Shown here piece after piece: positions 6,110-28,306 of a stretch of 64,000 bases of DNA (positions are counted from its first letter, which is position 1; each line of letters begins with the position of its first letter). The stretch is from Methanothermococcus okinawensis IH1 (GTDB taxonomy: Archaea; AGJL01; Methanococci; Methanococcales; Methanococcaceae). Under the pieces are notes generated by a model. It made no database searches and had not been told where the DNA came from. It saw only the letters and a program-made list of their open reading frames with translations. The position numbers were made by a program, and so were the translations under genes. The stretch covers positions 372,001 through 436,000 of the forward strand of contig NC_015636.1 of assembly GCF_000179575.2 (NCBI RefSeq), given 5' to 3'.

Positions 6110-6330
6110 CTCGGGATTTAAAAGCATCCTTTAAAAATCTCAAAATTCACTTCGTGAATTCGAAGCGAATCCTTTGGATTCGCTGACTTACAAAACCTTG
6201 AAAAGGTTTTGTCAAGTTATACGATGCCGTAGGCAGTAAAAAATCCGTAGGATTTTTTCTGACTTCTCGCTATCGCTCGAAAAAGATGCTACCTAAAATA
6301 ACCTCGCTTCGCTTCGGTTGGAACCTAAAT
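6110..6330. repeat. Cluster of about seven modular hairpins beside tRNA-Arg
   Basis: Successive perfect or near-perfect hairpins: AATTCAC/GTGAATT; GCGAATCC/GGATTCGC; CAAAACC/GGTTTTG; TGCC/GGCA; AAAAAATCC/GGATTTTTT; a short CGCTATCGCTCG unit; and CCGAAGCGAAGCGAGG. The linker CTGACTT occurs twice. Bases 6159-6218 are nearly the same as a stretch inside the transposase at 26723-26780, and the right end matches the element at 1416-1480 in inverted order. No coding potential is seen. The cluster ends 14 bp from tRNA-Arg. Confidence 0.75.
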
Positions 6331-10866: not shown

Positions 10867-11391
10867 ATGCTTAAAAAAATATTCAATGGAAGTAAAAAAA
10901 TATACAAAAAATTAACCCTACCTGAGAAAGAATACAGAACATGGATAGCACATCAAAAAGGAGAGGCTTTTGAAAGTTATGTATTAAATCAATTATTTCC
11001 AGAAGAATATTTTGAAATCTTAGATATGACGCACAATTTTGAAACTAATTCAAAAAGGTATGTTAAAAAATCATTAAAACCAGATTTTCTTTTAAAAGAT
11101 AAAAAAACTGGAAAGATTTTTTATGTTGAATGCAAATACAGAAGTAAATTATATCAAGATAAATTTCACTGGGCTAAAAGTAATGAACAATCTAACAGAT
11201 ACAGAACAATAGAAAAAGAAGAAAACATACAAACATATATAGCTATGGGACTTGGAGGAACTCCAGAAAATCCAGATAATATATATTTAATGCCACTAAA
11301 AGAAATAAAATACAACGCTCTTTTTCCAAGTATTTTAAAAAATTGGGAAATTACAAACAAATATGATGTTTTTAAAATTGTCAATCTTTAA
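10867..11391 (+). CDS. PD-(D/E)XK-fold nuclease-like protein
   Basis: A 174-residue protein. KPDFLLKDKKTGKIFYVECK (about residues 75-94) has the D...ExK spacing of a restriction-endonuclease-like active site. GEAFESYV near residue 32 supplies the conserved N-terminal Glu helix. The last 280 bp are almost identical to a frameshifted copy inside the element (22046-22325). The gene lies just outside the left end of that element and may be a relic of an earlier related one. GGGGAAAAACT precedes the ATG. The biological target is unknown; a Holliday-junction or restriction role is possible. Confidence 0.65.
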   Translation: MLKKIFNGSKKIYKKLTLPEKEYRTWIAHQKGEAFESYVLNQLFPEEYFEILDMTHNFETNSKRYVKKSLKPDFLLKDKKTGKIFYVECKYRSKLYQDKFHWAKSNEQSNRYRTIEKEENIQTYIAMGLGGTPENPDNIYLMPLKEIKYNALFPSILKNWEITNKYDVFKIVNL

Positions 11392-15370: not shown

Positions 15371-16239
15371 CTATGTAGGTATAACTAAACCTATGATAAA
15401 TCTAATTATTCCATAAACTATCAGTATTATTATTATGTATGCCAAAGTCCATACAATCGGAGCTCCGATACCAAAGCTCTCAGAGACTGAATTTACAATA
15501 TTACATACGGAATTAATACCATCTTTAACAAAATTAATACACGATTGAATAAATTTACTTGGTATGCTCAGCAAAGATTTAACAAATGAACCAATTGCAG
15601 AATCTACAACAGAACTTATTAAATTTTCAATATTATTTTTTGTTATACCAACAGCATTTTTTATTGGAGTTACAACCGCATTAATTACAGATGAACCACT
15701 ATCTCCTGAATCATCACTTCCTGAATCATCATCCCAAGAACTGCCTCCATCATCACTTCCTGAATCATCATCCCAAGAACTGCCTCCATCATCACTTCCT
15801 GAATCATCATCCCAAGAACTGCCTCCATCATCACTTCCTGAATCATCATCCCAAGAACTGCCTCCATCATCACTTCCTGAATCATCATCCCAAGAACTGC
15901 CTCCATCATCACTTCCTGAATCATCACGAGCACCAGCACCGCCACCTCCTGAACCACCAGAAACTGTTGATATTGCATTGCTAACCGTTGAAGCTGCATT
16001 TGAAGCCCAAGAACCAACTGTTGAGACCGCAGAACTTACTGTATTGCTAACCGTTGAAGCTGCATTTGAAGCCCAAGAACCAACTGTTGAGACCGCAGAA
16101 CTTACTGTATTGCTAACCGTTGAAGCAACTGAGCCAATAGTATCAGATATACCACTCACAACAGAACCAAAACTCCAAGCATAACAAGAATTTATAGAAA
16201 TGCATAAAATTAAAAGTAAAGCAAAGATTTTTTATTCAT
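15371..16239 (-). CDS. Secreted low-complexity surface protein with FGIGAPIV anchor; reading frame broken near the start
   Basis: The open frame from GTG 16159 gives 262 residues. Two Ser/Ala/Val repeats of about 24 residues (NTVSSAVSTVGSWASNAAST) come first, then five acidic 11-residue repeats of the type SGSDDGGSSWDD (33 bp units, about 15710-15930). A helical region follows, then FGIGAPIVW with a transmembrane end. Upstream, GGTGATTTA and ATG 16239 start a perfect signal peptide (LLLILCISINSCYA) that enters the long frame only if one A is added to the A6 run at 16228-16233. The full gene is therefore probably 16239-15371 with a 1 nt deficit. Confidence 0.65.
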
Positions 16240-21722: not shown

Positions 21723-22334
21723 GTGGGTGGTATTGTGGGTTTTATAAAGAAAATTATTAATTTAATTTATGGAAATAAAAACAAACAAAAGAAGCCTAAA
21801 ACATACGAAAAAGACGAAAGATTTATTTCTCCAAGAAAAGAATATAATCAATACCACCAAAAGAAAAACGAAAAAACAAAAAAATTGAATCATTTACAAA
21901 AGGAGAAGCTTTTGAAAATTATATTGAAAACAACTTATTTCCAGAAAAATACTTCATTTTATTAAGCAAAACTCACAACTATGAAACAAATAATAAAAGA
22001 TATGTGGAAGATTCTTTAAAGCCTGATTTAAAGTTTAAAGACAAAAAAACTGGAAAGATTTTTTTATGTTGAATGCAAATACAGAAGTAAATTATACCAA
22101 GATAAATTTCACTGGGCTAAAAGTAATGAACAATCTAACAGATACAGAACCATAGAAAAAAAAGAAAACATACAAACATATATTGCCATGGGACTTGGAG
22201 GAACTCCAGAAAATCCAGATAATGTTTATTTAATGCCACTAAATGAAATCAAATACAACGCTCTTTTCCCAAGTGTTTTAAAAAATTGGGAAATTACAAA
22301 CAAATATGATGTTTTTAAAATCATAAATCCTTAA
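21723..22334 (+). pseudogene. Frameshifted copy of the PD-(D/E)XK nuclease
   Basis: GTG 21723 opens a frame that should continue as FTKGEAFENYIENNLFP... and ...SLKPDLKFKDKKTGKIF-YVECKYRSK. Two frame breaks interrupt it: one A too few in the run at 21878-21884, and one T too many in the run at 22059-22065 (T7, where the intact copy at 11120 has T6). The last 280 bp are almost identical to 11108-11385. The end overlaps the integrase gene convergently. Either a decayed gene or sequence errors in homopolymers. Confidence 0.75.
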
Positions 22335-24997: not shown

Positions 24998-26432
24998 ACT
25001 ATTTTTATTTTATTTATCTAATTCTAATTCTTTTAACAACAGTCCAGTTATTTTCATCAATTACATGAACTTCTCTTTTGAAAATGTATATACATAGTTA
25101 TTGATATACAAAGACCTTAAAACATCTAATTTATGTTTATCATCTTTTTTCATCGTTATTTTATTATCTTCTATTTTAAACATATATGCATGAGCTCCCA
25201 CAGGTATTACCATTATATGCTTATCTTTATCCCACAAAAATGCATGATGGTTATAAAGGGCAGAAGACCAATATTCTAGAAGTTTGTATTTATCCAACTC
25301 TTTTGGATTATTGTAATCGCTCACATCATATAGCGAGATTTTTAATTTATTATCCTCGTCTTTTCCTATGCCTATAAATTTATTATTTCCTATTGGATGC
25401 AAATATGTAGAATACCCAGGAATTTTTAATTCTCCAAGTAATTTTGGATTTTCTGGGTCTTTTAAGTCTATTACAAGTAAAGGGTCAGTTTCTTTATATG
25501 TAACGATATATACCTTATCTCCATAAACCTAACTGCATATATTCGCTCCCCTTTTTCAATATTGGTAAGTTTTCCCTTTATATTTAGTTCATTATCAAGA
25601 ATATAGATATTGTTAGTAGTTCTATCTCTAAATTTCCAATAGTTTCCTATTGTTGTAGCCACCCTTAAATTGCCGTTGTATTCGTCCATTGCAAATTGAT
25701 TTATCAATCTTCCAGGAACGCTTCCACTTTTAACTTCAAAGGTATTTATGTTTATTTTCATTATTCCTGTTTTTTCAATTCTTCCCAGTGTTCTTCGAGA
25801 TATAACTCATAATCATTATTTATTCTATTCACTAAATTTAGTCTATCTTCATTTGAAAGGGTTTTTAAATAACGCTCCAATATTATTCTAATCTCAACAG
25901 ATTTTGCTTCATCACCAAATATTTTTGAATCTAAAACCTCGTTGATTAAATTGGAAGTATTTTCTGGAAAATACTTATTTGAGTTTTCCTTTAAGAAGTT
26001 AATAAAAAATTTATTTTCATTAGGTCTTAGGTGATATGTGAAATAAATATTTTTTGACATATGTGTGGTGGTTTCATAAGTGCCTGCTGTAGCTATGGTA
26101 TGTGCAATATTGCCGCTATTTATATCGATTGATGATATTATATAGGTTCTATCGAAATTGTTCAATAATGTATCTGGTATTATTGGAATGTAATAGTTAT
26201 TGTAATTTATTTTTACATCATTCCAAATAATTGGATAATTTACAGTCAAATTTTGTATAATTAAATATAATTTTCCATTATAAACCCTAGACTCCACATA
26301 AAAACCATTTAAATCCTTTTCCCATTTTAATATTGGATTTTTTGGATTAGATACATTGTAATTCAGTATTTTATTATACTTATTGTCGATTATTATTAAA
26401 TTGTTGTTGTATAAATATAACTGACAGTGTGA

Positions 26433-27577
26433 TTACGGTATTCCTCTCTTTATTAGTTCTTTACTACACGATTTAACCACTTCATAAAATGATAAACCAT
26501 ATTTATGGCTTAAATATTCTATGCAATTTGAAACTATTGCTAAAAATCTAATAAACCCTATATTACTATTTTTAGATGTTAAATAGTTCCCTTCAATTTT
26601 TAAAACTGATTTATCCCTTTGATGCTTTTCTTCTATCATAGGTCTCTTGATATATTCCCCTATTATATTTTCTGCCTTCTTTTTATGGTCTATACATACC
26701 AAATACTTGGGTTCCTCCTGGTTTCGAAGCGAATCTGAAAGATTCGCTGACTTACAAAAACCCCTTGGGTTTTTGTTAAGTTTCATTAGCACTGCAACGA
26801 TTTTAACCCTACCTACATTAGGGATATTAACCACTTTATGATATAGTTTAACTTCTGTTTCGTTAATTGTCCTTAATTTAAACTTATTTTCTTCCAAATC
26901 CTTCTTAAATAGTTTTTCTATTTGGACTTTCTTACCAAAATACTCAACTATGATGTTTTTCTTAATTTTCCCAATGTAACATAGACCCAATTTCTTAGAC
27001 TCCTTCATAACATCCTTTGTAGTTATAAAAGCGTCTCCTATTACCGTCCTGATATCGGTGTTGGATAAGAACCCAAGAATATCTATAAATATATTTGTAG
27101 ATTTTTTGTTTAAAGGTTTTGTTGTAGTATAAATTGAGTATATCCCTTTTTATTATGATAAATACAGCAATTTATTTGTTCTTGATATAATTTTCTATGT
27201 TCTTCGATGTAATTATATCTAATAATACATCCATAAACCTTTTCACTCCATCTCCTTATGAATGTTGAATCAATTATTGCAGTGAATTTAAACCTTTTAT
27301 CATTCAAGATATCGGGAAGGCTTGCTAATTGGTTATATACGCAAATCTCATTTTTTGATAGTTTTTGAATGTTTTTGATGATGGTAGTTCTGTGGATTTT
27401 TGAAATACTCTCTGAAAATGCTTTAATGGTCTTTATTGGGGTTAGCACTCTAACCTGTGCAAACCTGGATAACTCATCTGAACAGTTAAATCCTAAACTA
27501 TTTATAGAATTAGTGAGTACATTATTAAGTGTTTCTAACCTGTTATCACTAAACTTTTTTATTTGAGTATATTGCTT
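26433..27577 (-). pseudogene. IS4-like DDE transposase, frameshifted
   Basis: The open frame from 27577 has no good start codon above GTG 27448. AIIDSTFIRRW holds the first Asp, TVIGDAFITT the second, and YIKRPMIEEKHQRDK fits the Y(2)R(3)E(6)K signature of IS4-type transposases. A frame break at the T5 run 27147-27151 (AAAAAGGG on the coding strand) needs one more base, or a -1 ribosomal slip at AAA AAG. An in-frame hairpin insertion (26723-26780) adds about 20 residues between the second Asp and the YREK motif. Probably inactive. Confidence 0.75.
26723..26780. repeat. Modular hairpin element inserted in the transposase frame
   Basis: GCGAATC/GATTCGC and ACAAAAACCC/GGGTTTTTGT hairpins joined by CTGACTT. 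The stems and linker match 6159-6218 while the loops differ. The reading frame stays open through it, giving NKNPRGFCKSANLSDSLRN in the transposase. This resembles the palindromic elements known to sit within Rickettsia genes. Confidence 0.75.
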
Positions 27578-28306
27578 TTAACTATTTTTATTTTTTGATG
27601 TTAAGGTTGATATCGTTAAATCACACTATCAGAAATATAAATTTCCTCCATGTGAAATATTTTTAATAATATCTGCTGATTCTGGTGGAAGGGCATTTAA
27701 TATATATGATTCTCTACTTCCATAGGATAATAATATTTGGTGCTGTATCTTACAATAGGATATCTTTCTGGTGAATAATAGATATAATTTCCATTGGTTT
27801 TTACTATATCTGCCTCATCTATGCCTTTTACCTGCACATTGGTTTCAGAATATCTATTCGCACTATTGGAATTTGAAATAGCCTCTGTTGTAGATAAAGC
27901 TTTTATTTCTCCTCTCGATGAAGTGCTAAAACCACCAATCATATTTGGATATCCATAACTATAACTATGGTCTGTTGATTTATTAATAAATTCCTTAAAT
28001 GTGGTTTCATTTGCTGGAACCATCTTAAATTCGCTATTAATTGTAGTATTATTCATTGCATTTCCGTTTTCATTATTACTATTGTATACACACACCCACA
28101 AAATACTACTAAGCATATAAATATACCAATTAAAATAGGGGCTCCCTTCATAACACCACCAAATATTTATTGATATAAATTTAAGTTAATCCCACCACCA
28201 TATGCATACAATATATAGTATAAAGTATTATAAATAAATAAGTCTTATAAATAACTATTATTAACCTTATTATTACTAAATTATTACTAAATCTTATTAT
28301 TATTAA

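Follow-up and report, generated by a model that had tools for sequence, protein, structure and literature searches.

A dispersed double-hairpin element read in frame within a transposase gene of Methanothermococcus okinawensis, with relatives across the Methanococcales

Palindromic repeats with coding potential, fused into protein genes, were described in Methanocaldococcus jannaschii by Suyama, Lathe and Bork (2005), as cited in passages of PMC2229807 and PMC2996958. In-frame palindromic inserts are also known in Rickettsia and Wolbachia, and a passage of PMC2229807 gives the Rickettsia palindromic elements (RPE) a size of 105–146 nt. Allomyces and other mitochondria have double-hairpin elements, which share with the elements described below the two adjacent hairpins, the lack of a target duplication and a distribution both genic and intergenic (PMC2800124). 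The REP, BIME and REPIN sequences of bacteria are likewise hairpin units that form doublets and arrays, and they are mobilised by a Y1 (RAYT) transposase. To our knowledge, the coding palindromes of Rickettsia have been recognised since 2000 with no known way of moving, and we know of no enzyme that mobilises the RPE or the Wolbachia palindromes. We take the repeats of Suyama and colleagues to be the group named MJRE, and one of the genomes used here, G028, is presumably the match to M. jannaschii.

We analysed a window of 64,000 nt of the M. okinawensis IH1 genome (NC_015636.1, positions 372,001 to 436,000) and searched 36 genomes of the order Methanococcales for relatives of an element found in it; a search at phylum level covered the same 36. 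The elements are a short dispersed DNA family of ∼45–57 nt, built of two adjacent hairpins and present in at least 22 of the 36 genomes. We distinguish family 1 (TTAGAY...GA, ∼47 nt, covariance model R1) from family 2 (CTTRAC...CTTCGA, 57 nt), which was given its own model, R2, because R1 scores the window insert at only 9.4 bits. The MJRE come from the same order and resemble these elements as palindromic dispersed repeats with some copies in frame in coding genes. The present families may include the MJRE. R1 has 14 matches in G028, and an O-methyltransferase gene of that genome holds a family-2 copy in frame. Three things described below are absent from the passages that cite Suyama 2005: the carriage by an insertion sequence (IS), the existence of empty sites, and copies in leuS and mtnA of other genera.

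The RPE and the Wolbachia palindromes are also dispersed palindromic DNA found between genes and in frame in conserved genes, but their sequences are different and their hosts are bacteria. Moreover, the RPE form one long stem-loop of 105–146 nt with terminal inverted repeats, and neither that length nor such repeats is found in our double hairpins of 57 nt and ∼47 nt. The Allomyces mitochondrial elements differ from ours in sequence and genome. The REP, BIME and REPIN sequences differ in being bacterial and in depending on the Y1 family, which is absent from this genome. A classical MITE, with terminal inverted repeats and a target-site duplication, is at odds with the clean, duplication-free insertions in the IS, in mtnA, in leuS and in the nested locus L174.

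The window element belongs to family 2 and occupies positions 26,724–26,780 on the reverse strand, in frame in a transposase gene; read in the transposase sense, it is CTTAACAAAAACCCAAGGGGTTTTTGTAAGTCAGCGAATCTTTCAGATTCGCTTCGA, with the ends CTTRAC...CTTCGA. Fold and covariation define two hairpins on that strand, both with three-base loops: hairpin 1 (26,751–26,780), CTT(a)ACAAAAACCC / AAG / GGGTTTTTGTAAG, with a bulged purine after CTT, and hairpin 2 (26,724–26,750), TCAGCGAATCT / TTC / AGATTCGCT..TCGA. The folding z-score of the element is −5.9 as RNA and −7.7 as DNA. A second family-2 element lies on the reverse strand at 6,160–6,216, in an intergenic hairpin array that adjoins a tRNA gene and occurs three times in the genome; beside it in the same array is a degenerate double hairpin of family-1 type (6,225–6,262, reverse strand, 19.6 bits). 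The two family-2 elements are 78% identical over 60 nt (E = 5e-7 for the whole genome), and the pattern GATTCGCTGACTTACAAAA has 2 matches versus 0.01 expected, so the match is far above chance. R2 scores the two loci at 86.2 and 80.0 bits (E ∼1e-19 and 4e-18), both sequences being part of its training set, and a strict hairpin-pair scan of the window returned these two loci only. An Rfam 15 search with 15 loci found no curated structured-RNA family, only tRNAs and a sub-threshold HgcC match. The sequence-only reading of this DNA had thus picked out a real element and a genuine sister match, whose limits we correct from 26,723–26,780 and from 6,159–6,218, respectively; its "about 20 foreign residues" are 19 (NKNPRGFCKSANLSDSLRN or similar), read through in the protein and missing from two related transposases.

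Other repeats were noticed in the window. At 1,313–1,520, and also at L031, L036, L046 and L047, tRNA genes adjoin hairpin-bearing segments, behind which the 3′ end of the tRNA is repeated (for example, ...GTTTGAATCCCGACTGGCGCA after the tRNA at 1,313); L047 has three 132-bp tandem copies. Integration of a tiny element at tRNA 3′ ends might leave such an arrangement. Near-identical 39-bp tandem repeats lie at 15,666–15,965, and a 300-bp direct repeat, 91% identical, links 11,091–11,390 to 22,034–22,333, ∼10.9 kb apart.

The transposase gene is part of an IS of 1212 bp (26,421–27,632, reverse strand; ends CTGAYAGTGTGATT), one of seven genomic copies that are ∼99% alike and all carry the 57-nt stretch; one further transposase locus was also obtained. 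The window copy is flanked by the 8-bp direct repeat AAATATAA (26,413–26,420 on the left, 27,633–27,640 on the right), and among the seven copies checked, two of them with left ends not located, this is the only one with a clear direct repeat. The C-terminal part of the transposase is encoded by an ORF of 238 codons (26,436–27,149, reverse strand) that runs through the insert, and all seven copies keep this frame open. The N-terminal part lies in another frame (27,113–27,577, reverse strand), probably joined by a −1 frameshift. The split over two frames (26,436–27,577 in the window) is seen in most copies and in the relatives L061 and L072, and an A-run lies at the frame overlap (A AAA AAG in L061); together these features suggest programmed −1 frameshifting. 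Transposase family scores were weak only, for IS701/IS4. Judging from its position upstream of the RPMIEEKHQRDKS block, the insert plausibly falls between the DDE motifs. The window IS copy splits a beta-propeller protein gene (25,061–28,116), with PF09826 in the ORFs on both sides, and the gene remnants flanking the IS also contain frame breaks.

Related IS copies that lack the insert occur in G014 (host family f1, another genus) and G023 (host family f2). Empty sites at L060, L061, L072, L077, L081 and L085 have the junction GAA^AAT and no duplication. The empty form of this IS segment is 43 nt long and the filled form 100 nt, a clean gain of 57 nt or 19 codons: ATGGAA^AATCAG stands against ATGAAA-[57 nt]-AACCAG with no bases duplicated or lost, and the protein alignment has a gap of exactly 19 residues in both related transposases. 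The 57-nt stretch is an insertion and no original part of the transposase, because other genomes hold empty copies of the same IS. The claim of an in-frame insertion is upheld by the net gain over the empty sites and by the open C-terminal frame in 7/7 copies. Comparison with uninserted IS copies, which the sequence-only reading had proposed, yielded the exact junction without target duplication, and the outcome that would have refuted it, every copy of the IS family carrying the stretch as an original part of the protein, is contradicted by the relatives in two other genomes.

Two readings would do without an insertion that is translated. The 19 residues might be an ancestral transposase loop lost in the relatives, as their presence in all seven copies of this genome would allow; yet the relatives, which come from two genomes belonging to two families, share one empty site, and the stretch is a member of a dispersed family whose copies, with the same ends, lie in leuS, a methyltransferase gene and intergenic arrays. 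Such a loop is scarcely credible. Alternatively, the stretch could be removed from the transcript as an archaeal tRNA-type intron and never translated, a structured insert within a coding gene being what that reading expects. We consider it very improbable, since in three different genes the family-2 insert has no stop codon and a length divisible by three, and since frame-breaking 47-nt copies occur in IS copies, some with further stop codons. A translated insertion remains our reading of the window locus.

Across the order, family 1 has matches in 22/36 genomes (R1, E up to 0.1): 58 in G012, 44 in G014, 43 in G016, 37 in G003 and 23 in G010; genomes of the other family have up to 14, and this genome has 5. 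Family 2 is present in this genome and in G003, G010, G012, G014 and G028, and each model matches some members of the other family. Among 57 distinct family-1 sequences, 98.2% of cells pair and 12 of 17 pairs change on both sides, with a covariation of 0.460 versus 0.154 shuffled in an alignment fitted to the model, which favours the score. These values point to strong compensatory change in the family-1 stems. In family 2 (ten sequences), 99.2% of cells are paired and both sides change in 9 of 24 pairs; covariation is 0.270 versus 0.114 shuffled under a structure drawn by hand from the same sequences.

The elements also lie in conserved genes. In the congener G003, leuS (leucyl-tRNA synthetase) contains a clean, in-frame 57-nt family-2 insertion at ATGAAA^AAT; 33 other Methanococcales genomes match both flanks without the insert. 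It encodes KLDKNSSSFCKSANSKNSLRN, close to the transposase insert KLNKNPRGFCKSANLSDSLRN. Two species, G028 and G014, have in-frame family-2 inserts in an O-methyltransferase (LDENSSSFRKSANPSDSLR and LDENSKSFRKSANPKDSLR). In G010, mtnA carries a clean, in-frame 48-nt family-1 insertion that 33 orthologues in other genomes lack, at a site that is a variable stretch of the MtnA alignment. Other family-1 copies sit inside the open frames for an ATPase_2 protein, a CobN/Mg-chelatase, a polyferredoxin and an AcsV-like protein. Strand and frame agree among the three family-2 coding cases, an agreement that is only suggestive because four of the six frames are open by inspection. In intact host genes with aligned empty sites, the inserts are multiples of three, whereas other insertions into IS copies break the frame.

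Such a frame-breaking insertion was found in the same IS. Six IS copies found in G014 and two found in G025 hold another double hairpin, TTAGACGAAATGC...GTAAGCGA (47 nt), which lies ∼8 nt further on than the 57-nt site and breaks the frame. The IS was thus hit independently at almost one spot; L085 has a third site. The parallel drawn earlier with Rickettsia holds for behaviour, with copies in frame in leuS, mtnA and other conserved genes, but in-frame insertion is no rule, as the 47-nt sister in the IS of two genomes breaks the frame. A different IS-like gene in G016 (L191) holds two identical 47-nt family-1 elements 437 nt apart, and the same flanks are present in G031 (L089, L097), a genome of another family. 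This distribution suggests that elements may travel between genera on insertion sequences.

Several loci bear signs of mobility. At L174 one element is nested in the stem of another, and its removal leaves there an ordinary-element sequence such as L157. L163 and L189 are direct tandem copies, which join exactly, and the base before the left end is A in 39/43 distinct sites. An IS605-like transposon of G014 has an element directly behind its left-end hairpin, and its counterpart in G029 is empty. Double hairpins inside or directly after the left-end hairpins of IS605-like transposons were also seen in G010 (L181, L182, L214). Such left-end hairpins may be a favoured target. A search of the 36 genomes with PF01797 yielded no candidate mobilising enzyme: this Y1 transposase family is present in 5/36 genomes and was not found in this genome (G000), in G012 (58 element matches) or in G016 (43).

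We put at about 0.85 the probability that the best overall explanation is correct, namely that a dispersed double-hairpin element inserted in the transposase gene and was then multiplied by the IS. A family-2 copy, 57 nt or 19 codons with no stop in the used frame, entered between GAA and AAT, neither duplicating nor deleting target bases. The downstream frame of the two-frame transposase was kept because the insert is a multiple of three and its frame is open, and the IS, as its distribution shows, then multiplied and took the element along. Seven near-identical copies carry the insert and this genome has no uninserted sister copy, so that we presume from these copies that the inserted transposase still works. 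Counting against the explanation are the need of the transposase protein for a frameshift between its two frames, the clear direct repeat at one IS copy only, and the lack of a Y1 transposase as candidate mobilising enzyme in this genome. The sequence-only reading had proposed that the element can move and be spread by the IS. The second part stands, because all seven IS copies carry the insert. The elements behave as selfish or neutral palindromic inserts and probably move on their own.

For the copying step itself, our leading candidate, held tentatively and at odds well below even, is single-strand insertion of a hairpin-shaped copy by an HUH-type or similar nuclease. We favour this route because of the lack of target duplication, the A before the left end, the GA right end, the exact tandem joins and the hairpins at both ends; the absence of PF01797 from this genome and from two of the richest counts against it. 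A rival reading derives the elements, as non-autonomous forms, from an IS200/IS605-type (Y1) transposon, in the manner of REPs, REPINs and palindrome-associated elements (PATE). The lack of target duplication, the hairpins, the tandem joining, the constant base next to the left end and the constant right end agree with such an origin, as do elements close to Y1 genes (G014, G010) and to a Y1 fragment (G003). However, the G014 element is an insertion into the left end of its IS605-like transposon, empty in G029, and not that end itself; the hairpins at the IS605-like left ends of G014, G029 and G010 are different ones and do not resemble those of the elements; the hairpin tips vary freely; and two of the most element-rich genomes lack Y1. 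We therefore think this derivation unlikely. The main rival of the HUH-type route is spread via an RNA copy, or replication slippage with template switching, as suggested for the Allomyces mitochondrial double-hairpin elements, where the lack of duplications led to the proposal of an RNA route (PMC2800124). It would account for the missing target duplication, the nested and tandem insertions and the joint change of both stem sides, but constant ends and an A favoured at the left junction speak for a defined cut, and we regard it as doubtful too. An HUH-type or similar nuclease thus stays our provisional choice.

Taken together, the locus is a real archaeal case of coding palindromes, as the sequence-only reading had proposed, but an earlier one had been published for M. 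jannaschii (Suyama 2005, cited in passages of PMC2229807 and PMC2996958). The new points are that the families, with their exact ends and empty sites, span the order, that an IS carries an element, and that copies lie in a tRNA-synthetase gene and in mtnA. It is conceivable, though we would wager against it, that the Methanococcales possess mobile double-hairpin coding elements whose movement takes an undescribed route and leaves no target duplication, whose fold persists as the hairpin tips change on both sides at once, and which use IS as vehicles within a genome and between genera. With exact ends, empty sites, a target preference, a carrier IS and a culturable archaeal order, the copying of such elements becomes a testable question. 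The IS case provides a route by which another mobile element can disperse them, and the leuS and mtnA copies indicate that conserved enzymes tolerate, and may evolve by, inserts of 16–19 residues.
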